Both the position numbers and the translations under genes were made by a program. A stretch of 64,000 bases of DNA from Enterococcus diestrammenae (GTDB taxonomy: Bacteria > Bacillota > Bacilli > Lactobacillales > Enterococcaceae), in the NCBI RefSeq assembly GCF_009933255.1, contig NZ_MAEI01000053.1, positions 37,871 to 101,870 of the forward strand, read 5' to 3'. Positions 14,605 to 49,412 of this stretch are shown piece by piece; the first letter of the stretch is position 1; every line of letters starts with the position of its first letter. The notes beneath the pieces were generated by a model that worked only from the letters and a program-made list of their open reading frames with translations, did no database searches and was not told the DNA's origin.

Positions 14605-14743
14605 AAGATGCTAGCTGAACTTAGCGGCTTTTGCTTAGTCTAACCGTATGCGGTAGCTGGGCTCCTTCGTGAAGCCAAACATCGTTAAACTTGGTATGAT
14701 GGCATTTATGCTTATGACAATTTTCTAATATCTTAGACTATAA
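14605..14743 (+). repeat. Dispersed intergenic repeat, copy 1 (type A)
   Basis: About 140 nt downstream of trpS, same strand. Shares GCTAGCTGAACTTAGCGG, CTTTTGCTTAGTCTAAC, GTATGCGGTAGCTG, TTCGTGAAGCCAAACAT, AAACTTGGTATGAT and a 3' ATATCTTAGACTA with the other copies. Ends right at the terminator. Confidence 0.75.
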
Positions 14744-14786
14744 AAAAACTCTCTACCCTATGTTTGTGGTAGAGAGTTTTTTACTG
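14743..14786. terminator. Bidirectional terminator between trpS and the helicase gene
   Basis: AAAAAACTCTCTACC / GGTAGAGAGTTTTTT. Confidence 0.85.
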
Positions 14787-14822
14787 TGTCTCTTGTTCTA
14801 TCGCAATCGCAGTCAAAGCCAG

Positions 14823-17180
14823 TTAAACGGTGTTCTGGGTTCTCCAAAAATCTGACAACTCTGCTTGTAACTGCTGGGTATCATGGACTAAACGGGCATG
14901 ACGCCAATGCTGGGGAAAGAGTTTCTGATATCTGGGGGAGATAAACCGCTGATCTAACAGTAAGACCACCCCAAAATCCGATACATCGCGAATAACGCGA
15001 CCAGCTGCTTGTAACACTTTATTCATTCCCGGCAGTTGATAGGCGTATTCAAATCCCTTGCCCTGAGCGTCATCGAAATAGTTTTTGATTAAGTCTTGCT
15101 CATGATTCATCTGTGGCAGTCCTACACCAACAATGGCGGTCCCAATCAAGCGGTCCCCTTTTAAATCAATCCCTTCCGAAAATATGCCTCCCAAAACGCA
15201 AAAGCCCACCAAGGTTTCAATAGGATTTGCCTCAAACCGTGCTAAGAAAGCCTCCCGCTCCTCTTCAACCATCTGCGTATCTTGAATTAAACAAGTGATC
15301 TCTGGATGATTGCTGGCAAAAAGGCTGGCTACTTCATCCAAGTATTGATAAGAAGGAAAAAACACCAAATAATTGCCAGTTTTGCCCGTAACCATTTGAT
15401 AAATAGCATCAACGACTAGTGGCAAACTAGCTTGGCGCTTACGATAAGTCGTTTCAATATAATCAGCTACTAAAATCCGTTGGTGTTCTGGCGGAAAAGG
15501 ACTCGGAAGTTTGTAACGCAAGGCTTCCTTTCCACCTCCAAGAACATCTTGATAATAAGCTAACGGGGTAAAACTGGCCGAAAATAACAAGGCACTTTTA
15601 CCTTTCGCCAACATCTGATCGAGAAAAGGTGCTGGCGCGATACAAAATAGTTTGATTTTCAAATCTGTATAAGTGCGTTCGATAGTAGTCTCAAAATGAT
15701 CATCATAGATTTCTGAAATCCGCAAGAAAGCTTGGACTTCAAAATAATAGGCCAAACCAGTTTCTTCTGCAGGATTGCCAGGATTGGCCGCCAACCATTC
15801 TTTCATTTTTTCCGAAAAACCATACAAGCGGTTAATCAGACTCTCCGGCATCAGGGATTGGTGTTTAAAGCGCCAATCTTCTTCGATTGAGCGTTGTTGC
15901 AAGAGTTCAAATTCATTGTCGATTTGATTGAGACGACGATGCAATCCGCGAAAGCTTTTCGGCAGTTTTTCTTGAAAAGCGTTACCGCTATTACGGGACA
16001 GAGTCGCTGAATACATTTCCCGCGAACGACTAACCAAATTATGGGCTTCATCAATCAGAAAGTAATAGTCCTCTTTTGGTTCCTCAAAAAAACGTCGCAA
16101 ATAAACCGTCGGATCGAATAAATAATTGTAGTCACCAATAATGACATCGCAAAACAGACTGACATCTAATGATAATTCAAAGGGACAGAGCTCATGCTTT
16201 TTCCCGTAATGCTCAATAACTTCCCGTGTAATTTGATTTTCATGATGAAGTAAATCCCACAAGCCTTCATTGATCCGATTGTAGTAGCCTTTAGCATAAG
16301 GACAGTGTTCTGGCGTACAATTACGCTCTTCTAGAAAACATATTTTATCCTTCGCTGTCAACGTCACCGATTTTGTTTGACTGCCATTCTTCGCTAACGC
16401 CTTGAGGGCATCTTCAGCGACTTGTCGGGTGATGGTTTTGGCAGTCAGATAAAAGCAACGATCACCATCTGCTTCTCCCATCGCCTTTAACGCTGGAAAA
16501 AGGGTGGAAATCGTTTTACCGGTGCCGGTGGGAGCTTCGACGAAAAGACGTCGAGAAGTCTTCAAGGTTTTATAAGCTGCCGCCGCCAGTTCTCGTTGCC
16601 CTTTACGAAAAGTTTCATAGGGAAAGGTCAATTTGGTCAATGCCGTATTGCGAACTCTGCGCCAATCATCTTGGAATACCAACCATTTATGGTATTCCGT
16701 AAGTAAATGATCCATAAACAGTTGTAAGTCCGTCATCGTGAACTCGCGGCGGGTACGGGTGATGACTTCTTCTGTGGTCTGATAATAAGTCACCTGCACG
16801 GCTATCTCCGTCAACTGTTCCTGAAAAGCATAAAGATAGCCATAGACCATCCCTTGAAAGAAAAACAGCTCCAACTGATCTTCTGACAAGTCTTCGAAAT
16901 GAACTTCTGAAGTCTTAATTTCATCAATAACTGTTTTACCAGCTTCATCACAAAAAATCCCATCAGCTCGTCCTTCGATGGTCAGAGAATCCTCTTGGAC
17001 AGTCATGGTCCGTTTTAAGCTGACTTCCTTTGCATAATCCTCACCAGCAGCTTTCTGCAGTTTTCGATGGAGGCGGGCGCCTTCTTGTGCCGTGTGGTTT
17101 GAGACATGACGACTATCAATATCCCCTCGGCGTAAAGTAAATTCCACAATCTCACGAACGGAGATTTTTCCACGATCCAT
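14823..17180 (-). CDS. XPD/DinG-like helicase with N-terminal PD-(D/E)XK nuclease domain
   Basis: 785 residues. N-terminal Cas4/RecB-like nuclease region with GRAD (70-73) and DEIK (86-89), the expected acidic/Lys catalytic set. Then an SF2 helicase: Walker A APTGTGKT (~216-223), four cysteines suited to the XPD iron-sulphur cluster (281, 288, 293, 332), DEAH box at 377-380 and a C-terminal helicase lobe with the late AAGRVIRD motif. Likely acts in DNA repair or R-loop removal. ATG at 17180 follows AGGTGAGAG. It stands alone, convergent with trpS. Confidence 0.88.
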   Translation of the reverse strand: MDRGKISVREIVEFTLRRGDIDSRHVSNHTAQEGARLHRKLQKAAGEDYAKEVSLKRTMTVQEDSLTIEGRADGIFCDEAGKTVIDEIKTSEVHFEDLSEDQLELFFFQGMVYGYLYAFQEQLTEIAVQVTYYQTTEEVITRTRREFTMTDLQLFMDHLLTEYHKWLVFQDDWRRVRNTALTKLTFPYETFRKGQRELAAAAYKTLKTSRRLFVEAPTGTGKTISTLFPALKAMGEADGDRCFYLTAKTITRQVAEDALKALAKNGSQTKSVTLTAKDKICFLEERNCTPEHCPYAKGYYNRINEGLWDLLHHENQITREVIEHYGKKHELCPFELSLDVSLFCDVIIGDYNYLFDPTVYLRRFFEEPKEDYYFLIDEAHNLVSRSREMYSATLSRNSGNAFQEKLPKSFRGLHRRLNQIDNEFELLQQRSIEEDWRFKHQSLMPESLINRLYGFSEKMKEWLAANPGNPAEETGLAYYFEVQAFLRISEIYDDHFETTIERTYTDLKIKLFCIAPAPFLDQMLAKGKSALLFSASFTPLAYYQDVLGGGKEALRYKLPSPFPPEHQRILVADYIETTYRKRQASLPLVVDAIYQMVTGKTGNYLVFFPSYQYLDEVASLFASNHPEITCLIQDTQMVEEEREAFLARFEANPIETLVGFCVLGGIFSEGIDLKGDRLIGTAIVGVGLPQMNHEQDLIKNYFDDAQGKGFEYAYQLPGMNKVLQAAGRVIRDVSDFGVVLLLDQRFISPRYQKLFPQHWRHARLVHDTQQLQAELSDFWRTQNTV

Positions 17181-17587
17181 TTTCTCTCACCTGCTTTCTG
17201 CTAAACACTTTTCCGCTATATTTCCATTAGCCGAACATACGTTTATACCATACCGTTTCACCTCAAAAAATGCAACTACTGCTCATTCAAGGACACGGTC
17301 TGTAAAACTATCAATTTTTCCCGACAAGCTTTATTACACAAAAAAATCCTCGAAATCACTTTCGAGGACCAAGGAAATATTGGATATGTTTTTGGACTTA
17401 GTAAATATAACTGTCTTGAATTAGAAAACTATGAAACCTTCATCACCTAGCATTAAAAAAACAATCATAAAATTCACCGGTTGTCAGACGATTTTGAATA
17501 CATTGACAACACCCCTGGTTTGTGAAGGGATTTTCTTTGCGTTATACTTAGAATGAGTTAATCAATAAACGAACGGAAGTGACTGTG
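17181..17587. other. Gap with an orphan minus-strand terminator
   Basis: Divergent intergenic region. It contains a terminator on the minus strand (17340-17368) with no minus-strand gene upstream of it. A plus-strand TATACT at 17543-17548 may be the -10 for the MBL gene. Confidence 0.5.
17340..17368 (-). terminator. Orphan terminator
   Basis: TCCTCGAAA / TTTCGAGGA perfect 9-bp stem, 4-nt loop, then T7 on the minus strand. No gene feeds it; possibly the end of a small RNA starting near 17.5 kb. Confidence 0.6.
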
Positions 17588-18214
17588 ATGAATATTCTCC
17601 AAATCCCTACTGGTGCGATTCAAGAAAACTGCTATCTTGTTTCCGACGAGCAACATCTACTAATCATCGATCCTGGCGCTGAAGCTGAAAAAATTATTGG
17701 TGTAATTGGCAAAAATGATGCTAAGCCGGTAGCAATTTTATTGACCCACACCCACTATGATCATATTGGAGCTGTCGATCAGCTGCGATACCACTACCAA
17801 ATCCCGGTCTATGTGAGTCCTCTAGAAGATGCTTGGCTCAGTGACCCCCAGATGAATCTTTCAGGTCTAGGGCGTCACGATGATATGGATGACGTCTTTA
17901 TCCGCCCAGCAGATCACTTGTTTGAGCTAAAAGCCTACGATATCGCTGGTCTCCGCTTCGAAGTCGTGGCGACCCCCGGACATTCCATCGGCAGTGTCAG
18001 CTTTGTTTTTCCAGATTTTGTAGTTTCGGGAGATGCCTTATTTAGAGGAAGTATCGGTCGGACAGATTTACCGACTGGAAACTTAGAACAACTGTTGACC
18101 AGCATTCGGACGCAGCTCTTTACTCTCCCTAATGAGTTTCCGGTCTATCCAGGCCACGGAGCTCCTACCACCATCGAACGAGAAAAACGGTACAACCCTT
18201 TTTTCAACAACTAA
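17588..18214 (+). CDS. MBL-fold metallo-hydrolase (GloB/YcbL-like)
   Basis: 208-residue cytoplasmic metallo-beta-lactamase-fold hydrolase. Metal-binding THTHYDHIG near residue 57, ATPGHSIGS and SGDALF motifs and the final YPGHG are present. Relatives hydrolyse hydroxyacylglutathione or other thioesters; the substrate is unknown. ATG at 17588 follows GGAAGTGA; upstream in-frame GTGs lie inside the ribosome site. Followed 25 nt later by the phosphatase gene, so the two probably form an operon. Confidence 0.88.
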   Translation: MNILQIPTGAIQENCYLVSDEQHLLIIDPGAEAEKIIGVIGKNDAKPVAILLTHTHYDHIGAVDQLRYHYQIPVYVSPLEDAWLSDPQMNLSGLGRHDDMDDVFIRPADHLFELKAYDIAGLRFEVVATPGHSIGSVSFVFPDFVVSGDALFRGSIGRTDLPTGNLEQLLTSIRTQLFTLPNEFPVYPGHGAPTTIEREKRYNPFFNN

Positions 18215-18239
18215 AAATAGGAAAATGAGGAATGTGTTT

Positions 18240-18941
18240 ATGACTACTGAACTGTACATCATCCGTCATGGAAAAACCATGTTCAACGCCTTGCAACGAG
18301 CCCAAGGTTGGTGCGATACCCCTCTGACTGCCAAAGGTGCCGAAGATATCCATTACCTCGGCTTAGGTCTAAGGGATCTGACATTTGCCGAAGCGGTTTC
18401 TAGCGATTCCGGCCGAGCCATCGAAACCATGCGCCTGATCCTTGGAGAGACTCTTCAACAACCCAAACCACCTTACTCTATCGATAATCGGATTCGCGAA
18501 TGGTGCTGGGGATCATTAGAAGGTGGCTATGATTCTGAAATGTGGGGCGTCTTACCCCGCGTGCTCAACTTTAAAACTAGCGAACAAATGTGGGAAACCG
18601 ATATTTCCTTTAAAGACATCGCTCACGCTGTCTATAGCGCGGATTCTGCTCATTGGGCGGAACCTTATGATGTAATCGCCCAACGAGTTTACTCCGGTTT
18701 TGAGGACATCGCCCATCGAATCGAGAAACATGGCGGAGGAAAAGGGATCGTCGTCTCTCATGGCTTTACCATCGCTTTTTTGCTAAACCTGATCGATAGT
18801 ACCCAACCGGTCCGTGTCGATTTACTTAACGGTAGCGTCACTCGCCTTCTATACGCTGATGGTAAATTTACCATTGAAGAAATCGGCAACACCCAATATA
18901 TTGCAAAAGGTCGAGAAATTTCACGAGGGCTATTGTCCTAG
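18240..18941 (+). CDS. Histidine phosphatase family protein (phosphoglycerate-mutase-like)
   Basis: 233 residues. N-terminal phosphohistidine motif IIRHGKT at ~residue 7 and the second catalytic histidine in VVSHGFT. Lacks the length and insertions of dPGM, so it is more likely a broad phosphatase than glycolytic mutase; a better mutase candidate lies at 35.7 kb. ATG 18240 has GAGGAATG upstream. Ends at a strong terminator. Confidence 0.85.
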   Translation: MTTELYIIRHGKTMFNALQRAQGWCDTPLTAKGAEDIHYLGLGLRDLTFAEAVSSDSGRAIETMRLILGETLQQPKPPYSIDNRIREWCWGSLEGGYDSEMWGVLPRVLNFKTSEQMWETDISFKDIAHAVYSADSAHWAEPYDVIAQRVYSGFEDIAHRIEKHGGGKGIVVSHGFTIAFLLNLIDSTQPVRVDLLNGSVTRLLYADGKFTIEEIGNTQYIAKGREISRGLLS

Positions 18942-18956
18942 AATATTTCGTCAAAT

Positions 18957-19006
18957 GACACCAACGATAATTGGCTCTACGGCAATCATCGTTGGTGTTT
19001 TTCTTT
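18957..19006 (+). terminator. Terminator after MBL-phosphatase operon
   Basis: ACACCAACGATAATTG / CAATCATCGTTGGTGT, then T5. Confidence 0.8.
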
Positions 19007-19043
19007 AAATTTTTATAAGGATGAAGTCCTCTTACGAAATCGG

Positions 19044-19072
19044 TTGGTTTTACTAGCAAAAAACGCTATACT
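19044..19072 (+). promoter_or_regulatory. Promoter of uppP
   Basis: TTGGTT, 17 nt, TATACT. Confidence 0.55.
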
Positions 19073-19131
19073 TTCAGTTATGTGGCTTTTACTTATCGGA
19101 AAAGCCCTTTATTATGAAAGGAATGATTCCC

Positions 19132-19965
19132 TTGTTTTTATTAAATATTGTAAAAGCGATTCTTCTCGGTATCATCGAAGGTATCACTGAATGGCTACCA
19201 ATTTCCAGTACCGGTCACCTAATTCTAGCAGATGAGTTTATCAAACTTGATATGCCGCCAGACTTTATGACGATGTTCAATGTTGTGATCCAGCTAGGGG
19301 CGATTTTAGCCGTCATTTTTCTTTATTTCAATAAACTGAACCCCTTTGCTCCCTCAAAATCCGAAGTCGAAAAAAAGGAAACGTGGTCCTTGTGGTTCAA
19401 AGTGGTCGTCGCCGTGATCCCTTCAGTGATTATTGGCTTGCCTTTGGATGATTGGTTGGATGCGAATTTCCATCACTTTTTACCTGTTGCCATCATGTTA
19501 ATCGTCTATGGGATTGCTTTCATCGTCGTGGAAAAACGCAACAAAACAGTCAAGCCAAAATGTACCACCCTAAATGATTTTACGTATAAGGCGGCTTTGT
19601 TAGTCGGAATGTTCCAAGTCCTCTCATTAGTGCCTGGGACTTCTCGTTCCGGTGCAACTATCTTAGGAGGAATCCTAATCGGTGCCTCGCGCTTTGTTGC
19701 AACCGAGTTTTCATTCTTCATGGGAATTCCTACCATGTTAGGGGCAAGCGGCTTAAAAGTCCTAAAATTCCTTCTTAAGGGCAATAGTTTTGACTTCCAA
19801 AGCGCTATCGTCTTATTAGTCGGAACGCTGGTCAGCTTTGTAGTCTCCATTCTCGCGATTAAATTCTTAATGAACTATTTGAAGAAAAACGATTTCACCG
19901 TCTTCGGTTGGTACCGCATTGTATTAGGTGCAATCTTGATTGGTTATTGGCTGATAGCAATGTAA
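19132..19965 (+). CDS. uppP: Undecaprenyl-diphosphatase (bacitracin resistance protein)
   Basis: Membrane phosphatase recycling undecaprenyl pyrophosphate for wall synthesis. 277 residues with multiple TM segments. Active-site motifs [15 protein letters not shown] and [10 protein letters not shown] are intact. TTG at 19132 ([10 protein letters not shown]) is preferred: it matches the conserved N-terminus and lies 9 nt after AAAGGA. ATGs at 19114 and 19123 precede or abut the ribosome site. Confidence 0.92.
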
Positions 19966-20082
19966 GGATTAAGGATATCGGCCGTTTTGTAAAGATTCGT
20001 TTTAGCGTAAAACTAAGGTGACCCTTGACTGAAAGAATCAGAAAATCTCCGTTCTGGTGGTCCAGCTCTTAATTAGCCAAAT

Positions 20083-20127
20083 TAGAAGCTTATCTTCCCC
20101 TATTTTCAGGAAGATAAGCTTCTTTTT
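20083..20127 (+). terminator. Terminator of uppP
   Basis: AGAAGCTTATCTTCC / GGAAGATAAGCTTCT, then T5. Confidence 0.8.
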
Positions 20128-20180
20128 GCAAGTAACGTCTGATAAATGTCACACAGCAAAAGATAGCACAATATCTTAGT

Positions 20181-20394
20181 GAGAAAGCCGGCCGGTCTTG
20201 CTTCCAGAGAATGCCTCGAGTGGAAGTAGGACCGGTAAATACCAACTAAAGAACCGTTGTCATTTTGCTAGCTCATCTTAGCGAACTCTGCTTAGATGAA
20301 CTGTATGCGATATGTTTCTGATAGCTCCTTACCGAAGTCAAACATGTTGTAAGTCCAACAAAATCGTTGGACAACAACAAGTAATTTGCTAGCG
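20181..20394 (+). repeat. Dispersed intergenic repeat, copy 4 (type B)
   Basis: About 214 nt, roughly 80% identical by eye to 33441-33653. It starts with a hairpin (CCGGTC...GACCGG enclosing CTTCCA...TGGAAG), followed by the core stem TCATCTTAGC / GCTTAGATGA shared with all family members. Lies past the uppP terminator. Confidence 0.75.
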
Positions 20395-20493
20395 TAAAAG
20401 GCCTAATTGGTGTTTCTAGTTCACAGTTTTAAACCTCATCTTTTACTTGGCTCGATCTTTTACGTCCATCCTTGAGAAACACTATCGTTCTCA

Positions 20494-20507
20494 TGTAAGC
20501 GTTTCTA
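20494..20507. promoter_or_regulatory. cre-like site upstream of the metal ATPase
   Basis: TGTAAGCGTTTCTA matches TGNNANCGNTNNCA at all but one position. May be chance. Confidence 0.3.
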
Positions 20508-20561
20508 TTATCAATTAGGGAAAACAATATGATAGTCTTGTAGTGAAAGAAGGTGTCCGTA

Positions 20562-22505: not shown

Positions 22506-22574
22506 GTTACCGATATGAAAAGGGTAGCCAGCCGATCGTAGAAAAGGTGAAATTTCATCATACCTTAGTCTAAT

Positions 22575-22628
22575 CAAAAAAGCTTCTCTTCCAAGAGTTC
22601 ACACATCTTGAAAGAGAAGCTTTTTTAC
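22575..22628. terminator. Terminator after metal ATPase gene
   Basis: AAAAAGCTTCTCTT / AAGAGAAGCTTTTTT with inner CAAGA/TCTTG pairing. Just upstream (22541-22573) lies a fragment resembling the dispersed-repeat 3' end (ATACCTTAGTCTA). Confidence 0.85.
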
Positions 22629-22720: not shown

Positions 22721-23344
22721 TCAGGTATTTTTGATAACCATCCCATCGATGATATCCACGGCATCTTCACTATTATTGATGATTGCCTCTAAGCGCTCAT
22801 AAATTTCTTTCCATTTAATCACTTCAATAGGATCTTTTTCTTCTGTGAACAAATCTTTCTTCAAGCGAGAATACAAACGATCCGCTTCCGATTCAATCGT
22901 ATTGACTTCATCAATCATGGATTTCAAAGTTTTTGAATGTTTAAATTTAGGAAATTCGCCTGTCGCGGTATGTACCCCTTTGGCTGCCGTCACGATCATA
23001 TCCACGAAAACATCTGTTTCCGGACGCATTTTTTCGATAACTAAGTTTTCAAAAAGGTAAGTCACACCATTGATACCATCTAAAATATCATCAATTCGTT
23101 CCGAAATCACCAAGATGTCTTCCCGATCGATGGGAGTGATAAAAGCATCATAAAGTTCGTTAGTCAGCTCCGTCACGATGGTATCGGCTTCTTTTTCCAA
23201 TTTATGGATTTTTTCTGCCTCAAGGGATAAGGTCGCAGGCTCATAGTTTCGCACCAAGCTTGCCAAAATTTCTGCTGCTTGATGAGCGTTATCTGCCAAA
23301 TGTTCCATTGCCTTGAAGAAATCATATTGTTTTTTTCGTGCCAT
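22721..23344 (-). CDS. DUF47/PhoU-like Pit accessory protein
   Basis: 207-residue all-helical cytoplasmic protein of the DUF47 (TIGR00153-like) family, encoded next to Pit phosphate transporters and thought to regulate them. Acidic metal-binding helices are visible (HKLEKEADTIV, DREDILVISERIDDI, ESEADRLYS). ATG at 23344 follows AAGGAGTG. Lies ~120 nt downstream of the Pit gene on the same strand. Confidence 0.88.
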   Translation of the reverse strand: MARKKQYDFFKAMEHLADNAHQAAEILASLVRNYEPATLSLEAEKIHKLEKEADTIVTELTNELYDAFITPIDREDILVISERIDDILDGINGVTYLFENLVIEKMRPETDVFVDMIVTAAKGVHTATGEFPKFKHSKTLKSMIDEVNTIESEADRLYSRLKKDLFTEEKDPIEVIKWKEIYERLEAIINNSEDAVDIIDGMVIKNT

Positions 23345-25363: not shown

Positions 25364-25412
25364 TAAAAGCTCCGCCAGAGGATTTATCCTCTAGCGGAGC
25401 TTTTTTTTAAAG
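25364..25412 (+). terminator. Terminator of rpsT
   Basis: AAAGCTCCGC...GCGGAGCTTT with inner AGAGGA/TCCTCT, then T8. Confidence 0.85.
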
Positions 25413-25490
25413 AACTTATCAAAAATTAACCTCCAGAAAGCCTGATGTATCGGAAATGAAGTGGTGTATCATAGCGTCATTGAGATGCTC

Positions 25491-25751
25491 GAAAAAGGTG
25501 AAATTTAGCGATTTGGGACTTGGGTTGACGGTAGCTAGACCGGAAAATACCAAATACAAAACAATTTGTCACTTTCCTCTGAGCTTCAAACTTAGAGTAA
25601 GTATCATAAGTGCCACCAACTCTAAGTACTTTTGCTAGTCTTTTTCAGCCTTCTCTGCTTAGAAATGACTGTATGGGCAATTTTTTATAGTCATCTCAGT
25701 CTATAGAGCTGCTGTCAATCCAATTCTGCTCCGCTAAATCTCACCTTTTTC
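25491..25751 (+). repeat. Dispersed intergenic repeat, copy 6 (type B), with terminal inverted repeats
   Basis: 261 bp bounded by GAAAAAGGTGAAATTTAGC (25491-25509) and GCTAAATCTCACCTTTTTC (25733-25751), inverted copies differing at one base. Inside, ACCGGAAAATACCAAATACA, TTGTCACTTT, GCTAGTC and TCTGCTTAGAAATGACTGTATG match copies 4 and 5, with ~55 nt of extra sequence. No clear target duplication. Confidence 0.65.
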
Positions 25752-25824
25752 CCGGTATATGCTACCTTACAAGAAAATAATTTGCTGAATTTACGATGCA
25801 AAGGGAATAAATCGCTTATCGCTA

Positions 25825-25868
25825 AAATAGGGTGGACTCGCTGGAAGCGAGTTGCCCTGTTTTCTTAT
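25825..25868. terminator. Hairpin terminator between rpsT and recQ
   Basis: AGGG-N3-ACTCGCT / AGCGAGT-N2-CCCT followed by GTTTTCTT; probably ends the convergent recQ or readthrough from rpsT. Confidence 0.5.
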
Positions 25869-32458: not shown

Positions 32459-32561
32459 TTTCATATAAGATAAAGAACTGATAAAAATTTAAGCATCAAA
32501 AAGGGAACCTAGCGGGATTTCGGAAAAGGAGATCCTGCTGTTATTTTGCTGATTGGAAAAG

Positions 32562-32612
32562 TTGAAATTCACCGGTCCCACTGCGATCCAAGGAATTCCC
32601 CAGAAGAAAGCC
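32562..32612 (-). repeat. Fragment of the dispersed repeat, copy 7 (type B 5' part, minus)
   Basis: 40 nt from ACCGGTCCCACT onward match the reverse complement of 33459-33496 (copy 5) at about 32 of 40 positions by eye. Lies at the 3' end of the HAD gene. Confidence 0.5.
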
Positions 32613-32631
32613 AACTTCCTTTTTTTAGCCA

Positions 32632-33246: not shown

Positions 33247-33440
33247 CGTCTTTCTTGCCACTGCCTTTCTACGGTTTCATCATCACTACTTCCTAACATA
33301 AACGATAACCCTAACTGACGCAAGAATTTTAGGATTTTTCAATGGAATTTTCACGACTTTTCCAGATCCCCTTAGAGCCTGCCATTTAGAAAAAAATAGC
33401 GTAAGTTCTTAAAACCTACCAGTAGTAGCGTTGGCCTACT

Positions 33441-33653
33441 AAAAAAGCCGGGCAGCCTTGCTTCCGGAGAATCCCTCGGGTAGTAGTGGGACCGGTAAAT
33501 GCCAACAATAAACAGTTGTCATTTTGCTAGTTCATCTTAGCGAATTCTGCTTAGATGAACTGTATGCGCCATGCTTTTGATAGCTCCTTGCCAAAGTCAA
33601 ACTTGTTGTAAGTCCAATAAAAACCGTTGACCACAACGAATAATTCCGCTGAC
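33441..33653 (+). repeat. Dispersed intergenic repeat, copy 5 (type B)
   Basis: Closest relative of copy 4. Core hairpin AGTTCATCTTAGC / GCTTAGATGAACT has 12 pairs with one T-T mismatch. Unlike most copies it is antisense to its neighbours. A further family-like 3' end, CTTATAATACCTTAATTAA, sits at 33802-33820 next to the DUF711 terminator. Confidence 0.75.
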
Positions 33654-33817
33654 ATCCGTGACATTCCTAGCCGAGTAAATCACTTGCAACAAGACCAACC
33701 GTTTTTGTTTATAAACCTTTTTTATTCTGAATTCGTTTTAAGTTAATCGGTTATTTCTCAATCTGCTATCTATCGTCAAATGGCTTTCACATAGATTAAA
33801 ACTTATAATACCTTAAT

Positions 33818-33865
33818 TAAAAAAAGCCGATTCTTGAGGAGAGTGACGTCTCGCGAATCGGCAGT
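33818..33865 (-). terminator. Terminator of the ACT-DUF711 operon
   Basis: GCCGATTC / GAATCGGC closing an internal stem-loop, then T7 on the minus strand. Confidence 0.75.
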
Positions 33866-33883
33866 TTTACTTGGTAAATAACA

Positions 33884-35227
33884 TTAATTTTTAAAGCTAT
33901 GAATCGGTGCCGGAATCCGGCCTCCTCGTTGGATAAAGTCAGTGGATTTAGCTGGATTGGTCTTCATCACTGGTGCCCGACCTAACAGACCACCAAATTC
34001 CACCATATCTCCTACTGATGTCCCCTGAGCAGGGATGATACGTACCGCAGTCGTCTTGTGGTTGATGACCCCAATCGCTGCCTCATCGGCAATCATAGCT
34101 GCGATGGTGGCTGCTGGTGTCTCTCCAGGAATCGCAATCATATCCAAACCTACTGAGCAAATGGCTGTCATGGCTTCAAGTTTTTCTAAGTTTAATAAGC
34201 CTTTTTCCACCGCCGTAATCATCCCTTGGTCTTCTGAAACAGGAATAAAAGCACCCGATAAACCGCCCACATGATTGCAGGCCATGACGCCACCTTTTTT
34301 GACGGCATCATTTAAGAGTGCCAAGGCTGCTGTCGTTCCATGAGTACCCACAGAATCCAAGCCCATCTCTTCCAAAATATCCGCCACACTATCCCCGACA
34401 GCTGGCGTCGGTGCCAAAGATAAATCAACAATCCCAAACGGAACGCCTAGACGTTCAGAAGCGATTTGTCCCACCATTTGCCCCATCCGCGTGATTTTAA
34501 AAGCGGTCTTCTTGACGGTTTCCGCCACCACATCAAAGGATTCCCCTTTGACCTTTTCCAAGGCTCGCTTGACAACACCAGGACCAGAGACCCCCACATT
34601 GATTTCACAGTCGGCTTCTCCTACCCCGTGGAAGGCTCCCGCCATGAATGGATTATCTTCCACAGCATTCGCAAAAACCACGAGTTTGGCACAACCCATA
34701 TCAGAAGCTGCGGCCGTTTTTTTGATTGTTTCCCCCATCAATGCCACAGCGTCCATATTAATCCCAGCTTTTGTGGAACCTATATTGACAGAAGAACAGA
34801 CAAAGTTGGTTTCTGCCAAGGCTTGTGGAATCGATTCAATCAAAGCTAAATCCGCTCCCTGATAGCCTTTTTCCACTAAAGCAGTGTAACCTCCGATAAA
34901 ATTGACGCCTAACTCTAGAGCACAACGATCCAAAGTTTTTGCAAAAGCAACACAGTCTTGCCCACCACTGGCTGAAGCTACGATTGCAATCGGTGTGACC
35001 GAGATTCGCTTATTGATAATTGGGATTCCAAATTCCAATTCAATATCATTGCCGACTTTTACCAAATTTCGTGCTTTTGTAGTGACTTTGCGATAGATAT
35101 TGTCACAAGTAGTTTGAACATCCGATGCAATACAATCCAATAACGAAATCCCCATCGTGATGGTTCGAATATCTAAATTCTCCTCTTCCACCATCCGAAT
35201 TGTTTCTAAGATTTGATTTGTCTCCAT
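33884..35227 (-). CDS. DUF711 / UPF0210 family protein (PFL-like)
   Basis: 447-residue conserved cytoplasmic protein of unknown function, distantly related to pyruvate-formate-lyase-type folds. Glycine-rich conserved stretches ([56 protein letters not shown]) are intact. ATG at 35227 follows GGGGGTAC. Encoded ~66 nt downstream of an ACT-domain gene, a pairing conserved across Firmicutes that suggests the ACT protein senses an amino acid for it. Confidence 0.88.
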
Positions 35228-42345: not shown

Positions 42346-42497
42346 TGAAATTTCCACGGTAAAAGTTTTTTCACAAGATCAAAGGGCAGGATTCTTGACC
42401 TTTAGGTTTCGCCAGATTTGCCTTTTTAACGGTAAAGGGGTTCGTTGATCTTTATTTTGAATTAAGAAAGGTTGAACGAACTCGTTCAGCTCTTGAG

Positions 42498-42554
42498 AAT
42501 TAAGGCGCAACCGACACATGATAAAGAACATCATGTGTCGGTTGCGCCTTAATT
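42498..42554. repeat. 25-bp perfect hairpin
   Basis: Left arm 42498-42522 begins AATTAAGGCGCAACCG, right arm 42530-42554 is its exact complement, 7-nt loop AAAGAAC. No T-run follows, so it is not an ordinary terminator. It lies 4 nt before repeat copy 2. Confidence 0.85.
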
Positions 42555-42558
42555 TCAA

Positions 42559-42696
42559 TGATGCCAGTTGGACTTAGCGACTTTTGCTTAGTTTAACTGT
42601 CTGCGGTAGTAGAGCTAGTTCGTGAAGCTAGACATTTTTAGACTTGGTATTATAGAATTTACACTTGTGAAACTTTATAATACCTTAGTCTACAAA
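42559..42696 (+). repeat. Dispersed intergenic repeat, copy 2 (type A)
   Basis: Best-folding copy: GTTGGACTTAGC / GCTTAGTTTAAC (with G-T pairs), AGCTAGTTCGTGAAGCT, and a terminal stem TAGACTTGGTATTAT / ATAATACCTTAGTCTA. Directly followed by a terminator. Confidence 0.78.
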
Positions 42697-42741
42697 AAAT
42701 GACTCGTCTCTCAGAAATAGAGAGCACGAGTCATTTTTTTC
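42694..42741. terminator. Bidirectional terminator
   Basis: AAAAAATGACTCGT / ACGAGTCATTTTTTT with inner CTCTC/GAGAG; serves the 3D-domain gene on the minus strand. Confidence 0.85.
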
Positions 42742-42754
42742 TTATTTGATTGTC

Positions 42755-43420
42755 TTAGTCAAGAATCGTTACTTTGACTTGACGACGTCCCCAGGCTTCA
42801 CATTGTGCGTAAGAAGAGAAATGGACATCAATAATATTACCTTGGATAGCACCACCGGTATCCACCGCATAGGCTTCCCCATATCCTTCAACATACAAAT
42901 GTGTGCCCAACGGAATCACACTTGGATCGACTGCTACCGCCATCGGATTTTCTAGCAAGTTTTGACCAGTCGCGGTATAAATCCCACCACCGAGGGAATC
43001 TGCTGGATCTGAGCTGTATGCTGTTGCTTCCATGTACATCGTCGTACCAGAGTAGTTGCTGGCAGAATCAGTATTTGCGGCTTCTGTGACAGGTGTTTCT
43101 TCCGTTTGTGTTTCCGTCACTTCAGTGGATTCGTTAGATTCGTTGGATTCGTTCGTTGCTTTCGGTGCGACTGTTGCATCTTTGTCAGTATTGATAAGTA
43201 ATACTTCACCATCATAGATCATGTCGGTGTCTTCAATCGCGTTATCCGCTGCGATTTTATCAATATAGTTTTCTGAACCGTAATATTTAACGGATAAGCC
43301 CCACAATGTATCAGAAGGCTCCACCACATGTTCGATTTCTGCTGCATCAGCTTTCCCGCCGAATGCCACGATCCCAGCCACTACGGCGGAACCAAATAAG
43401 AATGATTTTACTAGTTTCAT
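42755..43420 (-). CDS. Secreted LysM and 3D-domain cell-wall protein
   Basis: 221 residues. Signal peptide ending GGKADA|AE (~residue 26), one LysM peptidoglycan-binding domain (HVVEPSDTLWGLSVKYYG), a Ser/Thr/Glu linker with three NES repeats (tandem 9-bp units in the DNA), and a C-terminal 3D domain with TAYSSD, AVDPSVIPLGTHLYV, AVDTGG and IDVHF, as in YocH or MltA-like lytic enzymes. Probably cleaves or remodels peptidoglycan. ATG 43420 follows AAGGAGACG. Homologues are often under WalRK; a WalR-like TGTAAT-N5-TGTCAT lies at 43624-43640 (minus), rather far upstream. Confidence 0.9.
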   Translation of the reverse strand: MKLVKSFLFGSAVVAGIVAFGGKADAAEIEHVVEPSDTLWGLSVKYYGSENYIDKIAADNAIEDTDMIYDGEVLLINTDKDATVAPKATNESNESNESTEVTETQTEETPVTEAANTDSASNYSGTTMYMEATAYSSDPADSLGGGIYTATGQNLLENPMAVAVDPSVIPLGTHLYVEGYGEAYAVDTGGAIQGNIIDVHFSSYAQCEAWGRRQVKVTILD

Positions 43421-43489
43421 AGATTCGTCTCCTTCATGTTGCAATCTGTCTTGCTGACGTAGACTATCATAACAACAATCGACCCTTTC

Positions 43490-43511: not shown

Positions 43512-43890
43512 TTATTTCAGTCTTGTGAGATTGTTACAAAATAACAAGTTTATTGATGACACCAGTTATGAAATCTGTAAAATCAAGCCTTCATGGCTAT
43601 TGAATTTTTCTGATAATTGTAACATGACAAAAATATTACAGGTTAAAATCGTAAATTTTGATTAATTTCCTCTTTAAATCACTATATACAAGGGAGAAAG
43701 ATTACATCATTCTATCAGTTGTAATCTGAGCTTCATGGAAAAGCACCCACATGTAAACGTTGCCAAATGAATAACACCTTAATCGAGATATTTTCGTCAA
43801 AATCCCCCTTCTTTTCGCATTTTTTTGCTATTTCTTTGCAAAGTGTCTTTCTGATAACAAAAAGAGACCGTTAGCTTGGGAAACTTCCAA
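43512..43890. other. ~380-nt gene-free stretch with small palindromes
   Basis: Contains AGATTACA / TGTAATCT around 43700-43728 and an exact cre consensus match TGTAAACGTTGCCA at 43752-43765. No ORF recognised. Confidence 0.4.
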
Positions 43891-43891
43891 C

Positions 43892-43926
43892 AAAAAAAAG
43901 ACCTACGATGAGAATTCACCGTAGGC
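43892..43926 (-). terminator. Terminator of the 46-residue gene
   Basis: GCCTACGGTGA / TCATCGTAGGT, 4-nt loop, then T8 on the minus strand. Confidence 0.8.
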
Positions 43927-43944
43927 ACTGGAAATGATAGCCAA

Positions 43945-44085
43945 TTATTTATTGAAGATTTTTGGTCCTTTACGCATGTTTTTACGATCATTCTTAGGTG
44001 TTTCCATTTGTTGCGAACGACCGCCACCTTGTTTCTTTTCAATCAGTTCCTTCATTTTTGCTTTCGCATCTTTGGTTGTGCTCAT
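43945..44085 (-). CDS. Small basic protein, 46 residues
   Basis: Too short for routine calling but convincing: ATG at 44085, AAAAGGCGGTGG upstream, stop at 43945 and a strong terminator right after. Product is MSTTKDAKAKMKELIEKK..., lysine-rich, GGGRSQQ in the middle and NMRKGPKIFNK at the end. Predicted helical N-terminus and flexible basic tail. Similar small lysine-rich proteins occur in Lactobacillales but no function is recognised. Confidence 0.65.
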   Translation of the reverse strand: MSTTKDAKAKMKELIEKKQGGGRSQQMETPKNDRKNMRKGPKIFNK

Positions 44086-44392
44086 TTTGCCACCGCCTTT
44101 TCGTTTCTCTATCAGTTCTTGCTTTGCTCCACTGTTTATCCTACTAGTAAATCAACTTCCCCATCATACAGAATAAGCCGCAATCAAGCAAGTAGATTTT
44201 TTTATTCCAACTAAATAGTCCGAATTTTTATAGAATTAAATAGAAAGAACATCTTTAAATCGAGGGTTAATTGTGATATTCTTAACGTTGATTTTCCCTT
44301 ATTTTAAACTGTTAGAAAAGTTCCAATAATTGGTACTTTTTGCCAGCGATAATGGAAGTCATATTTTTTATTACCCGAAAAGGAGAAATGCA
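44086..44392. other. Divergent intergenic region
   Basis: About 300 nt between the small basic protein and the permease. AT-rich; no convincing promoter pair, riboswitch or repeat identified. Confidence 0.4.
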
Positions 44393-45865
44393 ATGAGTAC
44401 GAACCAAAAACAATTACGTTGGACCAACATTGGTATCATCGCCTTCAGTATGGTCTGGGGCTTGGGCAACGTGGTTAATAACTATGCACAACAAGGTCTC
44501 TCGGTTGTGACATCATGGATTATCATCTTACTGCTCTATTTTATTCCCTATGCCCTGATTGTCGGTCAACTAGGTTCTACCTTTAAAGACAGTAACGGCG
44601 GTGTCAGCTCGTGGGTGGAAAAAACAACTACGAAAAAGCTAGCTTTCTACGCTGCTTGGACTTACTGGGTAGTCCATATCCCTTACTTGGCTCAAAAACC
44701 CCAAGGTATCTTGATTGCCCTCGGTTGGGCCGTAAAAGGTGACGGCACACTTGTTTCTTCGCTGCCAATCACCACTGTCGCTTTGTTAAGCTTGGCAATT
44801 TTCTTAGCCTTTTTGTATCTTTCAACAAAAGGCTTGTCCACTTTGAAAGTAATCGGTGGTTTGGCGGGCTCTGCGATGTTTGTGATGTCCATTCTGTTTA
44901 TCCTGTTAGCGATTGGCGCCCCAGCGATTAATTCTGGTGTTAGTTTAGCAACACCCCATATGGATAAACTATCCAGCTATATTCCTAAGTTTGACTTTAG
45001 CTATTTTACAACAATTTCGATGTTGGTCTTTGCTGTCGGTGGAGCTGAAAAAATCTCCCCTTACGTTAACCAAACGAAAAACCCTGCCAAAGAGTTTCCA
45101 AAAGGCATGATTCTTTTAGCCGCAATGGTGGGTATTAGTGCCATTTTAGGCTCAATTGCCATGGGGATGCTTTTTGCTAGCAACAATATCCCCGAAGATT
45201 TAATGGCAAACGGCGCATACACCGCTTTCCAAAAATTAGGAAACTACTATGGTATCGGCAATGCTTTGATGATTATTTATGCCCTGACCAATACCGTCGG
45301 CCAGATTTCTGCCTTAGCCTTCTCCATCGATGCTCCTTTGCAAATCTTACTCGCCGATGCTGACCCAGAGTTTATTCCTCAGTGGTTACGCCAACGCACG
45401 GCAAAAGGAACCTTGAAAAATGGCTACCTTCTTACCGGGATTTTAGTAAGTATTTTGATCCTCCTCCCGGTCTTGGGTATCGGTAACATGAATGAACTTG
45501 TGAAATGGATGACGAACTTAAATTCTGTGGTTATGCCATTGCGTTATTTGTGGGTCTTCTTTGCCTTTATGATGCTTAACAAAGCCCACAAAGAATATCA
45601 ATCAGAGTATAAATTCTTGAAAAATCGTAAAGCTGGTTTTGCAGTAGGCCTGTGGTGCTTCCTCTTTACCGCCTTTGCTTGCTTGTTGGGAATCTTCCCT
45701 AAGATGGAATTGGACTTGTCCTCAAAAGCTTGGTGGTTCCAAATGATCTCTAACATCTTGACACCAATTGCTTTAATCTTATTAGGCGCGATTTTACCTA
45801 TTATTGCTAAACGCAACAAACGTTCCAAACCGACTGAAGATACCAAGCCTGTCTCCTCCATTTAA
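44393..45865 (+). CDS. APC-family amino acid permease (GadC/YjeM-like)
   Basis: 490-residue, ~12-TM transporter. N-terminal WTNIGIIAFSMVWGLGNVVNN and GGVSSWVEK match the glutamate:GABA antiporter / YjeM branch of the APC family; the substrate is not determinable. ATG 44393 follows AAAAGGAGAAATGCA; the frame extends to 44330 without a ribosome site. Monocistronic. Confidence 0.87.
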   Translation: MSTNQKQLRWTNIGIIAFSMVWGLGNVVNNYAQQGLSVVTSWIIILLLYFIPYALIVGQLGSTFKDSNGGVSSWVEKTTTKKLAFYAAWTYWVVHIPYLAQKPQGILIALGWAVKGDGTLVSSLPITTVALLSLAIFLAFLYLSTKGLSTLKVIGGLAGSAMFVMSILFILLAIGAPAINSGVSLATPHMDKLSSYIPKFDFSYFTTISMLVFAVGGAEKISPYVNQTKNPAKEFPKGMILLAAMVGISAILGSIAMGMLFASNNIPEDLMANGAYTAFQKLGNYYGIGNALMIIYALTNTVGQISALAFSIDAPLQILLADADPEFIPQWLRQRTAKGTLKNGYLLTGILVSILILLPVLGIGNMNELVKWMTNLNSVVMPLRYLWVFFAFMMLNKAHKEYQSEYKFLKNRKAGFAVGLWCFLFTAFACLLGIFPKMELDLSSKAWWFQMISNILTPIALILLGAILPIIAKRNKRSKPTEDTKPVSSI

Positions 45866-45868
45866 ATC

Positions 45869-45903
45869 TTTGCTGTCTGCCATTTGGCGGGCAGCTTTTT
45901 TCA
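45869..45903 (+). terminator. Terminator of the permease gene
   Basis: GCTGTCTGCC / GGCGGGCAGC then T6. Confidence 0.7.
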
Positions 45904-45986
45904 TGTTCACGATTATAAATTAGCCAATCAACCATTGCACTGACAAAATGCTACACAAGAAACGCTTCTTTAAGGAAACCCACTTT

Positions 45987-46015
45987 TTGTCAACCTTACC
46001 AATCTTTGATACTAT
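45987..46015 (+). promoter_or_regulatory. Promoter of the dehydrogenase gene
   Basis: TTGTCA, 17 nt, TACTAT, ~43 nt before the ATG. Confidence 0.55.
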
Positions 46016-46057
46016 AAATTGGTATTAGATAAAGTTATTAATAGAAAGGAACATTTG

Positions 46058-47026
46058 ATGCGCATCCAAAAATCGAAAGTCGCCATTATCGGCGCAGGCT
46101 TAGTAGGTTCTTCTACAGCCTTTAGTTTAATTACTCAAGGAGTTTGTGATGAGGTTTTACTAGTTGACTTAAACCGCGAAAAAGCTCTAGGTGAAGTCCG
46201 AGACTTGAAAAATTCCATCAAATTTTTAAACCGCAACGTCCAAGTCAAAGCTGGCGATTACCAAGACTGTGGCGATGCGGACATCGTCGTGATCACAGCG
46301 GGGGCGCCTCCCAAACCCGGTCAAACGCGTCTAGATACTTTGGACATCAGTGCCAAAATTGCTAAATCCATCGTTGAACCTGTGATGGCAGCTGGCTTTG
46401 ATGGCGTCTTTATTGTCGTTTCAAACCCAGTGGACATGTTAGCAGATTTAGTCTATCAATTATCTGGTCTACCCAAAAATCAAGTATTAGGGACGGGGAC
46501 TTCTATCGACTCAGCTCGGCTACAAAACTTTTTAGCGGATTTAGTCGATGTCGATCCTCGTAGTGTATACGGTTATGCGATGGGAGAACACGGGGATTCA
46601 TTGATGGTTCCTTGGTCGACGGTGACTATTGCCGGCAAAGCCTTTCAAGATGTGATCACGGATAATCCCGAACTTGTGGGGGATATTGATTTGGATGATC
46701 TCGTTTTGAAAACCACACAAGAAGGTTGGGAAATCTTCAATCGCAAAGGCACGACCTATTACGGCATTGCTTCAGCTTGCGTGGGCATTATTAAAGCCAT
46801 CTTATTTGATGAAAACTCGATTATTCCTGTTTCCACTCGTTTGGAAGGTGAATATGAAGAAACCGACCTCTTTGCTGGCGTTCCTGCGATTTTGAACCGC
46901 AGTGGGGTTGCAGATATTTTGGAAATCCATCTAACTGAAGCTGAAGCTGAAAAATTCCATCATTCTGCGGCGATCATTCGGGAAAATACTGAAAAGATTC
47001 GTCAATATGTAAGTAAGAAAGACTGA
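46058..47026 (+). CDS. L-lactate dehydrogenase family protein (2-hydroxyacid dehydrogenase)
   Basis: 322-residue NAD-dependent dehydrogenase of the LDH/MDH family. Rossmann GAGLVGSS, catalytic Arg91 in GQTRLD, active-site His in GEHGDS, and the KGTTYYGIA helix are intact. The residue that confers lactate specificity (Gln102 in B. stearothermophilus, within GANQKPGETR) is Pro85 here (GAPPKPGQTR), so the preferred 2-oxoacid may not be pyruvate. ATG 46058 follows AGAAAGGA. Own promoter and terminator. Confidence 0.88.
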   Translation: MRIQKSKVAIIGAGLVGSSTAFSLITQGVCDEVLLVDLNREKALGEVRDLKNSIKFLNRNVQVKAGDYQDCGDADIVVITAGAPPKPGQTRLDTLDISAKIAKSIVEPVMAAGFDGVFIVVSNPVDMLADLVYQLSGLPKNQVLGTGTSIDSARLQNFLADLVDVDPRSVYGYAMGEHGDSLMVPWSTVTIAGKAFQDVITDNPELVGDIDLDDLVLKTTQEGWEIFNRKGTTYYGIASACVGIIKAILFDENSIIPVSTRLEGEYEETDLFAGVPAILNRSGVADILEIHLTEAEAEKFHHSAAIIRENTEKIRQYVSKKD

Positions 47027-47109
47027 GCAACTCCCTTTTCTCTCCCTATTCAAGCGAAACCGATACCTAAAAACCTTTTACTCCGTACCGGTCTTATTTG
47101 CTAGTCAAA

Positions 47110-47153
47110 GATAACCGCCCCTTTAGTCAACCCTAGACTGAGGGGTTTTTAAA
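47110..47153 (+). terminator. Terminator of the dehydrogenase gene
   Basis: CCCCTTTAGTC / GACTGAGGGG then T5. Confidence 0.75.
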
Positions 47154-47219
47154 TAACAAAAAATCAGGCAACCGTTTTACCACATCCTTTTGACTTCTTT
47201 TCCCTATTCCTCTTTTCTA

Positions 47220-47228
47220 TGGTATACT
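47220..47228 (+). promoter_or_regulatory. Extended -10 of ade
   Basis: TGGTATACT (TGn-TATACT) 32 nt before the ATG; no good -35. Confidence 0.45.
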
Positions 47229-47259
47229 GACTCAAAACTTTCCTTAAAGGAGGCTCCTT

Positions 47260-48993
47260 ATGACTAGCGATTTAATTCAGGAAATTCAAGCCAGTGGGAA
47301 GCAAATTCCCGCTGATCTCGTCGTAAAAAACGGTAAAATTGTCAACGTCTTCACCCGCCAAATCATGGAAACTGATTTAGCAATAAAAAACGGTAAAGTG
47401 GTGGGTTTTGGTAGCTATGAAGGAAAAGAAATTCTTGATGCCAAAGGTCAGTTCGTCGTCCCTGGTTTGATCGATGGCCATGTCCATATCGAAAGTTCGC
47501 TGCTACCTCCTCACGAGTTTGCCAAAATCTCATTGTTGCATGGCGTAACTACCGTGATAACCGATCCTCATGAAATCGGCAACGTCGCTGGAGAAACCGG
47601 GCTTCACTACATGATCACCGATGCCAAAGCAACTCCTATGAATATCTTCACGATGTTACCTTCATGTGTGCCCGTGACACCTTTTGAAACCAATGGTGCT
47701 ACCCTAACTGCGCAAAATTTAGCACCTTTTATGACAGAAACTGAAGTCTTGGGATTAGCCGAAGTCATGAACTATCATGCGGTGGCTCAAACGGAAGCGG
47801 AGATTATTGCTAAAATTACCGCCATTCAACAAGCAGGCGGCGTAATTGACGGCCATGCTGCCGGAATCGCCGCTGAAGAGTTAGCGCTATACCCTACCGC
47901 TCAAATTCGGACAGATCATGAAGCGGTCAATGCAAAAGAAGCACAAGCCCGCTTGGAGCTAGGCATGTATTTAATGATTCGTGAAGGGACGGTCGCCAAA
48001 GATTTACACGCCATACTCCCTGTCGTAAACGAAGCCACGGCTCGACGCTGTTTATTTGTAACCGATGATAAGTTGATTGACGATTTAGTGGAGGAAGGGT
48101 CCATTGATCATATTTTACGTCTAGCCATCGCTGCGGGCTTAGAGCCACTATTAGCGATTCAAATGGCTACTTTAAATGCGGCCGAATGTTTTCATTTACG
48201 GACTTTAGGAGCCCTAGCACCGGGATATCAAGCTGATTTCTTCTTAACTGATGACCTAACTTCTTTACCGATTTACGACGTCTTCGTCAAAGGACAACAA
48301 GTGGTCTCCCAACAAAAATTGGTGACTGACCTTTTCCCAAAAGCCACAGAAAATCCGCTACTAGCCGAATTACCAGACATGTCAGCGGCTCCCTTGACTA
48401 AAACCAGCTTCCAATTACCAGTCAATGGTCTCGCCAAAATAATCGAAGTCATCCCCAACAGTTTAATTACAAAACAAGTGCTAGCAACAGTCCCTACAGA
48501 AGATCAGCTATTTATGCCTTCCATAGAAGAAGACTTTTTAAAAATTGCCGTTGTGGAACGACACCATGCCACTGGCAACATTGGTTTGGGTATCGTCAAA
48601 GGCTTCCAACTACAAACGGGGGCATTGGCTACTAGTGTTTCCCATGATTCCCATAATATCGTAGTAGTGGGAACCAATGACGAGGATATGCTATCTGCCG
48701 TCAATCGTCTTCTAGAAACCGGTGGCGGAATGATCGTCGTCAATCAACAACAAGAAATTCAGCGGCTACCTTTAGCCATCGGTGGATTGATGTCGACCTT
48801 AGGCTATCAGGAAACTTATCAGCGATTGGTGGCTTTGACAGATGCCGCCCACTACCAAGGAGCAAGTAGCGAGTTTGATCCTTTTTTGACCCTGTCCTTT
48901 TTGACTTTATCCGTCATTCCTAAGCTGAAAATTACTGATCGGGGCTTATTCTCTTTTAGTGAGTTTGCCTTGACCAAGGTTGAAGCAGAATAA
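47260..48993 (+). CDS. ade: Adenine deaminase
   Basis: Converts adenine to hypoxanthine in purine salvage. 577 residues, amidohydrolase fold. Metal-binding PGLIDGHVHIESS near residue 72, TDPHEIGNV, DGHAAG and TDHEAV in the barrel, and the C-terminal SHDSHNIVVVGTN domain typical of bacterial adenine deaminases. ATG 47260 follows AAAGGAGG. Single gene. Confidence 0.93.
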   Translation: MTSDLIQEIQASGKQIPADLVVKNGKIVNVFTRQIMETDLAIKNGKVVGFGSYEGKEILDAKGQFVVPGLIDGHVHIESSLLPPHEFAKISLLHGVTTVITDPHEIGNVAGETGLHYMITDAKATPMNIFTMLPSCVPVTPFETNGATLTAQNLAPFMTETEVLGLAEVMNYHAVAQTEAEIIAKITAIQQAGGVIDGHAAGIAAEELALYPTAQIRTDHEAVNAKEAQARLELGMYLMIREGTVAKDLHAILPVVNEATARRCLFVTDDKLIDDLVEEGSIDHILRLAIAAGLEPLLAIQMATLNAAECFHLRTLGALAPGYQADFFLTDDLTSLPIYDVFVKGQQVVSQQKLVTDLFPKATENPLLAELPDMSAAPLTKTSFQLPVNGLAKIIEVIPNSLITKQVLATVPTEDQLFMPSIEEDFLKIAVVERHHATGNIGLGIVKGFQLQTGALATSVSHDSHNIVVVGTNDEDMLSAVNRLLETGGGMIVVNQQQEIQRLPLAIGGLMSTLGYQETYQRLVALTDAAHYQGASSEFDPFLTLSFLTLSVIPKLKITDRGLFSFSEFALTKVEAE

Positions 48994-49007
48994 GATTTGC
49001 GAAATAC

Positions 49008-49056
49008 AAAAAGCTGTTTGTCCGCCTACGTTTGATAGGTGGCAAACAGCTTTTTA
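49008..49056 (+). terminator. Terminator of ade
   Basis: AAAAGCTGTTTG / CAAACAGCTTTTT with an inner CCGCCTA/TAGGTGG pairing. Confidence 0.8.
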
Positions 49057-49269
49057 AATTCAGCTACTTTCGATTAGTGATTAATGATTTTTAGAAACAG
49101 GGAAGCTTCGATTATTCAAACATATCAGACATTTAAGTGCTGAAGTAGCAAATAGACTTCATTTCTGAATACTCCCGCTGAATCCTCTCAAGTCAAAAAA
49201 TTAACCGCTCCATCTGTAACTAAACCAACTGATCATTGAAAAAGCGATTTGTGTATTCTAATCTGGAGG

Positions 49270-49412
49270 CTGTTTTATAGACTGAGGGTTTATGAATTTT
49301 CACAAATGAAAATTCTATCATACCAAGTCTAAAATATCTGACCTCACGAACTAGCTCAGCTACCGCAAAGAGTTGGACTAAGCAAAAGACTCTAAGTCCA
49401 ACTAGCATCTTC
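49270..49412 (-). repeat. Dispersed intergenic repeat, copy 3 (type A, minus strand)
   Basis: Downstream of the NUDIX gene and in its sense. Core stem GTTGGACT / AGTCCAAC is fully Watson-Crick; an inner GAATTTTC / GAAAATTC hairpin and 3' CTCAGTCTATAAAA follow. Confidence 0.75.

Follow-up and report, generated by a model that had tools for sequence, protein, structure and literature searches.

A family of BOX-like, probably mobile repeats of Enterococcaceae that ends directly behind intrinsic terminators

Introduction

Short repeats that recur between unrelated genes may be parasites of the genome, regulatory RNAs kept by the host, or both, and a 64-kb region of the Enterococcus diestrammenae genome raises this question in a pointed form. 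The initial annotation of this region described a dispersed family of structured intergenic repeats, often coupled to terminators, and read it as an RNA-level element or as a mobile repeat selected for placement at the 3' ends of genes. Here we asked what kind of element this is, whether its fold is conserved, and what ties it to terminators. Our analyses indicate that the family probably consists of BOX-like, non-coding, modular and non-autonomous mobile elements of Enterococcaceae that land directionally behind terminators.

Results

Repeat copies within the window

All repeat copies listed by the initial annotation were recovered as intergenic sequences in the window, i.e., the whole stretch of 64,000 nucleotides that was analyzed (Table 1), and their similarity goes far past chance, the best matches in the own genome reaching E-values of 3.2e-56 and 2.5e-48 with self-matches excluded. 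Some boundaries had to be redrawn. The copies classed as subtype B are real, but each belongs to a larger element, about 700 nt in length. The copy at 25491, listed on the forward strand, is likewise real but forms the right part of such an element, with its structured strand on the reverse strand. What had been listed at 33802 as a separate 3'-end fragment is the right terminus of the element starting at 33437.

Table 1. Copies of the repeat family and adjoining terminators in the 64-kb window.
Feature	Position	Strand	Remarks
Element copy 1	14578..14740	+	Left box, core module 14610-14652, right box, tail; P2 missing
Terminator hairpin adjoining right end of copy 1	14743..14782	.	On side of DinG-like helicase gene 14823-17180 (-)
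B-type element, left module and first core module	20178..20392	+	Right part lost
Tail-only fragment	22541..22572	+	
Terminator hairpin adjoining tail fragment 22541..22572	22576..22627	.	On side of gene 22721-23344 (-)
rpsT terminator	25364..25408	+	T-tract adjoins right end of element 25409..25845
Right part of B-type element	25409..25845	-	Structured strand on -; contains oppositely oriented core module 25634-25677 (+)
Degenerate fragment of B left module	32561..32628	-	Inverted pair I4, 72%
Shortened B-type element	33437..33819	+	Left module, core module, right end 33798-33819
Terminator of gene 33884-35227 (-)	33820..33869	-	Adjoins right end of element 33437..33819
Complete A-type element	42467..42692	+	Left box 42467-42492, P2 42498-42554, core 42563-42605, right box 42612-42635, tail 42636-42692
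Terminator hairpin adjoining right end of element 42467..42692	42694..42741	-	On side of gene 42755-43444 (-)
A-type element without left box and P2	49278..49421	-	Core, right box, tail; no clear terminator at right end

Five of the six right ends in the window adjoin a terminator (near 14740, 22572, 25409, 33819, and 42692), and no clear hairpin was found at the sixth, near 49278. The terminator contact proposed for copies 1 and 2 holds for copy 1 and for the tail fragment at 22541, but not for copy 2 (20178), which has lost its right end and whose nearby terminator precedes its left end by about 50 nt. Model R1 scored 24.3 bits on copy 1 (14578-14682) and 54.7 bits on the complete A-type element at 42467-42583, where the model's right box was placed on the core module and not on the true right box. 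Besides, the whole 622-nt gap between the HAD-type gene and the gene at 33884-35227 (33262-33883) is made up of element and terminator; the matching gap in E. dispar (locus L113) has, by eye, some tens of nucleotides only.

Modular anatomy and covarying fold

The minimal unit of the family is about 119 nt long and comprises a left box, a hairpin (P2) and a right box, the two boxes pairing as P1 around P2, and it also occurs in the own genome (e.g., L040 and L048). Extra hairpin modules sit inside the unit and give it a variable interior; the core of the initial annotation is one of these, a hairpin module that spans about 43 nt and is located between P2 and the right box, and B elements can contain two such modules. 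Beyond the right box the element continues as a tail of about 60 nt, which stops at a terminator specific to the site. Full B elements measure about 700 nt and composites of an A and a B element about 880 nt, and no sizeable reading frame was found in three full-length elements, whose longest frames have 61, 61, and 78 codons.

A relaxed search of the fetched loci returned 94 units, with 54 in the length range of 100-130 nt; after clustering the set numbered 31, of which 28 diverse units were aligned, L031, L110, and L218 being excluded because P2 was lacking or the boxes were poor. Across P1 and P2 the proportion of paired cells was 84.9% against 70.9% after shuffling, 30 pairs against 22.1 and 171 cells against 61.1 were changed on both sides, and covariation was 0.424 against 0.186, with none of 500 shuffles as high in any of these measures; the count of further pair types (68) was reached by 22 of 500. 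Slid versions of the helices were only 32-49% paired, and RNAalifold, unaided, recovered the inner P1 (13 pairs) and 13 pairs of P2. For the core module, in 26 copies selected visually among 114 pattern matches, many of which were fortuitous hits in other genomes, 93.3% of the cells were paired against 79.1% and 48 cells against 16.2 were changed on both sides, again beyond all 500 shuffles, while the number of doubly changed pairs (6 against 4.3) was reached by 30 and that of further pair types by 106 of the 500. P1, P2, and the core thus covary strongly relative to shuffles, and the compensatory change claimed earlier for the core stem is borne out, with the reservation that shuffles ignore relatedness and the figures are therefore not probabilities. 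A local hairpin of the left box, considered as a conserved switch partner, was not supported (74.0% of cells paired against 72.2% after shuffling).

In the forward orientation, with the tail at the right, G-U cells outnumber A-C cells by 22 to 5 in P1 and by 55 to 13 in P2, where the loop-closing pair supplies 15 of the G-U cells, and the ratio is 10 to 11 in the core module; the variation of the right box is limited because it lies within the search pattern. The excess in P1 and P2 hints at selection on one strand, short of proof of an RNA, so that the RNA-level element proposed at the outset gains a hint from these two helices but none from the core.

Among 16 own-genome units the P2 loop reads GTTCTTT in eight, a close variant in three and the reverse complement AAAGAAC in three, with two unread. 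Since P2 is inverted in some copies, the loop sequences suggest that this hairpin may flip at the DNA level. Model R1 also matches the reverse strand at 42491-42561, over the P2 of the complete A-type element. In four loci of relatives (L213, L264, L273, and L275), a second long inverted repeat is interleaved with P2 in the pseudoknot-like order arm, P2 arm, arm, P2 arm.

A nearly fixed end point behind terminators

Elements are oriented one way relative to an intrinsic terminator, and the position at which their tail stops, immediately past the T-tract, hardly varies. Of 68 non-tandem right flanks, 52 contained, within 90 nt, an A-run with a hairpin after it, and in 39 of these 52 it starts 63-70 nt past the right box; when left flanks were mirrored and scored in this way, 19 of 68 were positive, without clustering, as were 219 of 870 random stretches. 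The test detected no terminator in the other 16 right flanks, and in other species tandem arrays are frequently placed differently, e.g., beside ribosome-binding sites. The narrow spacing together with the one-sided association calls for targeting and not for tolerance alone.

Along the opposite strand the gene comes first, followed by the terminator, the T-tract and finally the element. With flanking genes called simply as long open frames, the right-hand gene points toward the element in 50 of the 63 loci with a called right-hand gene (binomial 3e-6, which assumes independence and even odds), and left-hand genes split 30 and 30, the upstream gene being co-oriented with the structured strand in 30 of 60 loci. 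Because the gene that owns the terminator is on the opposite strand, placement behind a sense gene is not a rule of the family: the observation that five of six copies lie downstream of a gene with matching orientation is correct within the window but does not extend across the family, and the suggested 3'-end placement is replaced by an exact association, at fixed spacing, with the terminator of the opposite-strand gene.

As the initial annotation had noted, the terminators coupled to the repeats differ from site to site, and this is true of the hairpins at element ends in general. Elements also join other elements at the same point, with A tails against B left ends in junctions I10, I17, and I25, and B tails against A left ends in I51 and I54; on the host-terminator strand, the left end of A folds into a hairpin (-12.4 kcal/mol) with T-rich sequence after it. 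No target-site duplication was detected in 34 copies (flank match 6.41 against 6.54 after shuffling, with 465 of 500 shuffles at or above the observed value) in a comparison of A-run neighborhoods made without an empty site. Clean empty sites were not encountered; behind rpsT, E. dispar and E. innesii are too diverged for the junction to be placed.

Copies in the genome and in relatives

The own genome is a draft of 3.16 Mb in 54 contigs, and BLAST returned at least 51 matches to the B core, at least 38 to the B left module, and at least 23 and at least 45 to two type A copies; these counts are neither additive nor complete, because the match lists overlap and 40 candidates were scored per list. 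Dozens of further copies are thus present, in agreement with the dispersed, mobile-looking repeat with stems preserved by compensatory change that had been described; neither of the two findings named beforehand as refuting that description, a lack of covariation and a lack of additional copies, arose. Copies adjoin unrelated genes and are 93-95% alike despite unrelated flanks.

For one conserved protein, the best match among the best 80 named loci, a list from which the own record may be missing, was to E. dispar (90% identical). The whole A element was found by BLAST in 21 of 147 relatives. The right box, with up to two mismatches, was found in 27 of 105 Enterococcaceae genomes, representing 5 of 17 genera, and was absent from 78 at that pattern, which misses diverged copies; the reversed control pattern had no match in any listed genome. 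Among 20 named genomes, four carried the box (E. sp. 665A, E. ureasiticus, E. moraviensis, and E. plantarum) and 16 did not, namely seven from other genera and nine of Enterococcus (E. dispar, E. lactis, E. durans, E. innesii, E. lemanii, E. columbae, E. quebecensis, E. pseudoavium, and E. sp. MMGLQ5-1). An order-wide draw of 395 genomes gave 16 with the box, 15 of 71 inside Enterococcaceae and 1 of 324 outside, and this single outside genome (G303, 89% complete) has a unit with both boxes. The same element layout was found in other genera.

The type A element had no match in phages; in plasmids, three E. faecium records matched one unit (30 nt) and a second unit had no match. The E. faecium plasmid pSRR24 (NZ_CP038997.1, L301) carries a family copy between genes for a hexose kinase and a GntR-type regulator, and this copy likewise ends at a terminator-like hairpin. 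Seven loci of relatives (L223, L224, L228, L230, L240, L290, and L291) hold head-to-tail tandem arrays of units at a spacing of about 120 nt; in L224, L230, and L240 the left end of the array adjoins a sequence resembling the ribosome-binding site of an opposite-strand gene.

Known families and candidate mobilizing enzymes

A search against Rfam gave no match above the gathering score in the window, two matches far below the cut-offs in 10 loci (E 0.44 and 0.72), and no intron family up to E 1 in the same 10 loci. No intact mobilizing enzyme was found in the draft genome among the Y1 transposase and reverse transcriptase candidates: the one Y1 transposase gene, the enzyme type that an IS200/IS605 or REP-type element would use with matching ends, has two in-frame stops and flanks in which no shared end motif was seen by eye, and the only reverse transcriptase, of the group II intron type (L204, 1195-1719), is truncated, matching positions 2-118 of 353 of TIGR04416 below the cut-off. 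In a literature survey with thin coverage of subscription journals, the report of Efa-1 was the only one found that may concern this family in Enterococcus.

Discussion

The reading that we consider probable is that of a BOX-like mobile element with a preferred landing site. An enzyme supplied in trans would read the folded element and join its right end to the DNA behind a terminator hairpin. The element would itself end in a hairpin and T-rich sequence on the terminator strand, so that the target would be rebuilt and further elements could land; the A-B and B-A junctions would then be accounted for. A copy inserted past a terminator leaves the host gene unharmed and would therefore be tolerated, and effects on neighboring genes would be side effects. 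Counted against this reading are that no clean empty site, no target duplication and, in the draft genome, no intact enzyme was found, that 16 of 68 right flanks gave no terminator in the test, and that tandem arrays of other species are often placed differently.

The precise end point could also have arisen if RNA of the structured strand were copied in trans by a reverse transcriptase, which we regard as improbable, with priming, doubtful to the same degree, by the T-rich 3' end of the terminator paired to the A-run beside the right end of the element; copies primed there would land exactly behind T-tracts. Where a terminator is present the right end always lies beside an A-run, the G-U excess in P1 and P2 falls on the strand that would serve as RNA template, and the truncated group II intron enzyme indicates that reverse transcriptases have visited this genome. 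However, the core has no G-U excess, that enzyme is the only one found and is truncated, and left-only fragments occur besides tail-only ones, with no obvious bias toward loss of the left end (20 loci, by eye). It is unlikely that the family is a bacterial counterpart of eukaryotic SINEs, a folded non-coding RNA reverse transcribed in trans and primed at terminator T-tracts, for which transcription stop sites would be genome-wide landing pads. Strong covariation would equally be expected of an untranslated-region RNA that benefits the host, for example by altering transcript stability or termination, and is kept by selection at each site, and the arrays directly before the ribosome-binding site of the opposite-strand gene in L224, L230, and L240 point the same way. 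We hold such a role to be improbable, since copies sit beside unrelated genes, the upstream sense gene is co-oriented in only half of the loci, the right box is missing from most family genomes, and the left-box hairpin required for a switch has no support from covariation. If insertion were untargeted and copies survived only where they harm no gene, between genes and behind terminators, this would agree with the frequent retention of such repeats near gene ends, including the reported 3'-end enrichment of SPRITE (PMC3049150), but 39 of 52 end points within 63-70 nt and the predominance of right over left flanks make this very unlikely.

By analogy, the closest kind to the mobile element favored here appears to be the BOX elements of Streptococcus pneumoniae, and the family would behave like BOX with terminator targeting added. 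BOX elements are described as 67-637 bp long and are read as parasitic (PMC3049150); as in that account, the present repeats are dispersed, modular, variable in length and non-coding, with ends predicted to pair in RNA, and the covariation of P1 confirms that end modules pair around a variable interior. This likeness rests on descriptions of BOX and not on its sequences, and the right-box pattern had no match in Streptococcus timonensis. Reported features of BOX also include terminal inverted repeats and duplicated target sites (PMC3049150), two traits that were considered for a MITE as well. No duplication was seen here. Tail-less units have paired boxes near both ends; full elements have a tail past the paired boxes, and their two ends are, by eye, not inverted repeats. 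In the descriptions consulted, repeats of the BOX kind are still without a demonstrated mobilizer.

Other known systems share single traits with the family. Bacterial-C group II introns are reported to insert immediately after rho-independent terminators (PMC8919778), and landing directly behind an intrinsic terminator is what we observed, but no Rfam intron match was obtained in the window or in the 10 loci, and the three full-length elements inspected encode no reverse transcriptase. SPRITE of S. pneumoniae is described as terminator-like, enriched near the 3' ends of convergent genes and without an established target duplication (PMC3049150); it differs in being a single terminator-like hairpin, in place of a larger covarying element beside the host's own terminator. 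RUP, of the same species, is another short dispersed repeat (PMC3049150). Efa-1 of E. faecalis is intergenic, with a table entry of 163 in length, 65 (18) members and an adjacent pair of stem-loops (PMC2267715). Judged by description, this 2008 intergenic Enterococcus repeat with stem-loops may be an earlier sighting of the same family, and the part of that source describing it mentions no terminator rule (PMC2267715).

What the present family contributes to the picture of BOX-kind repeats is a covariation-supported fold, a landing site that is almost exact and a hint that one strand is preferred; together these restrict the possible mechanism and open it to testing. In carrier species it places extra folded sequence beside the terminators of many genes, which matters for the interpretation of RNA-seq 3' ends and antisense transcripts.

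Additionally, the window holds a 267-nt direct repeat (63346-64000) that is 99% identical, has a spacing of 388, reaches the window end and overlaps the start of a 1416-aa frame at 59250-63500.
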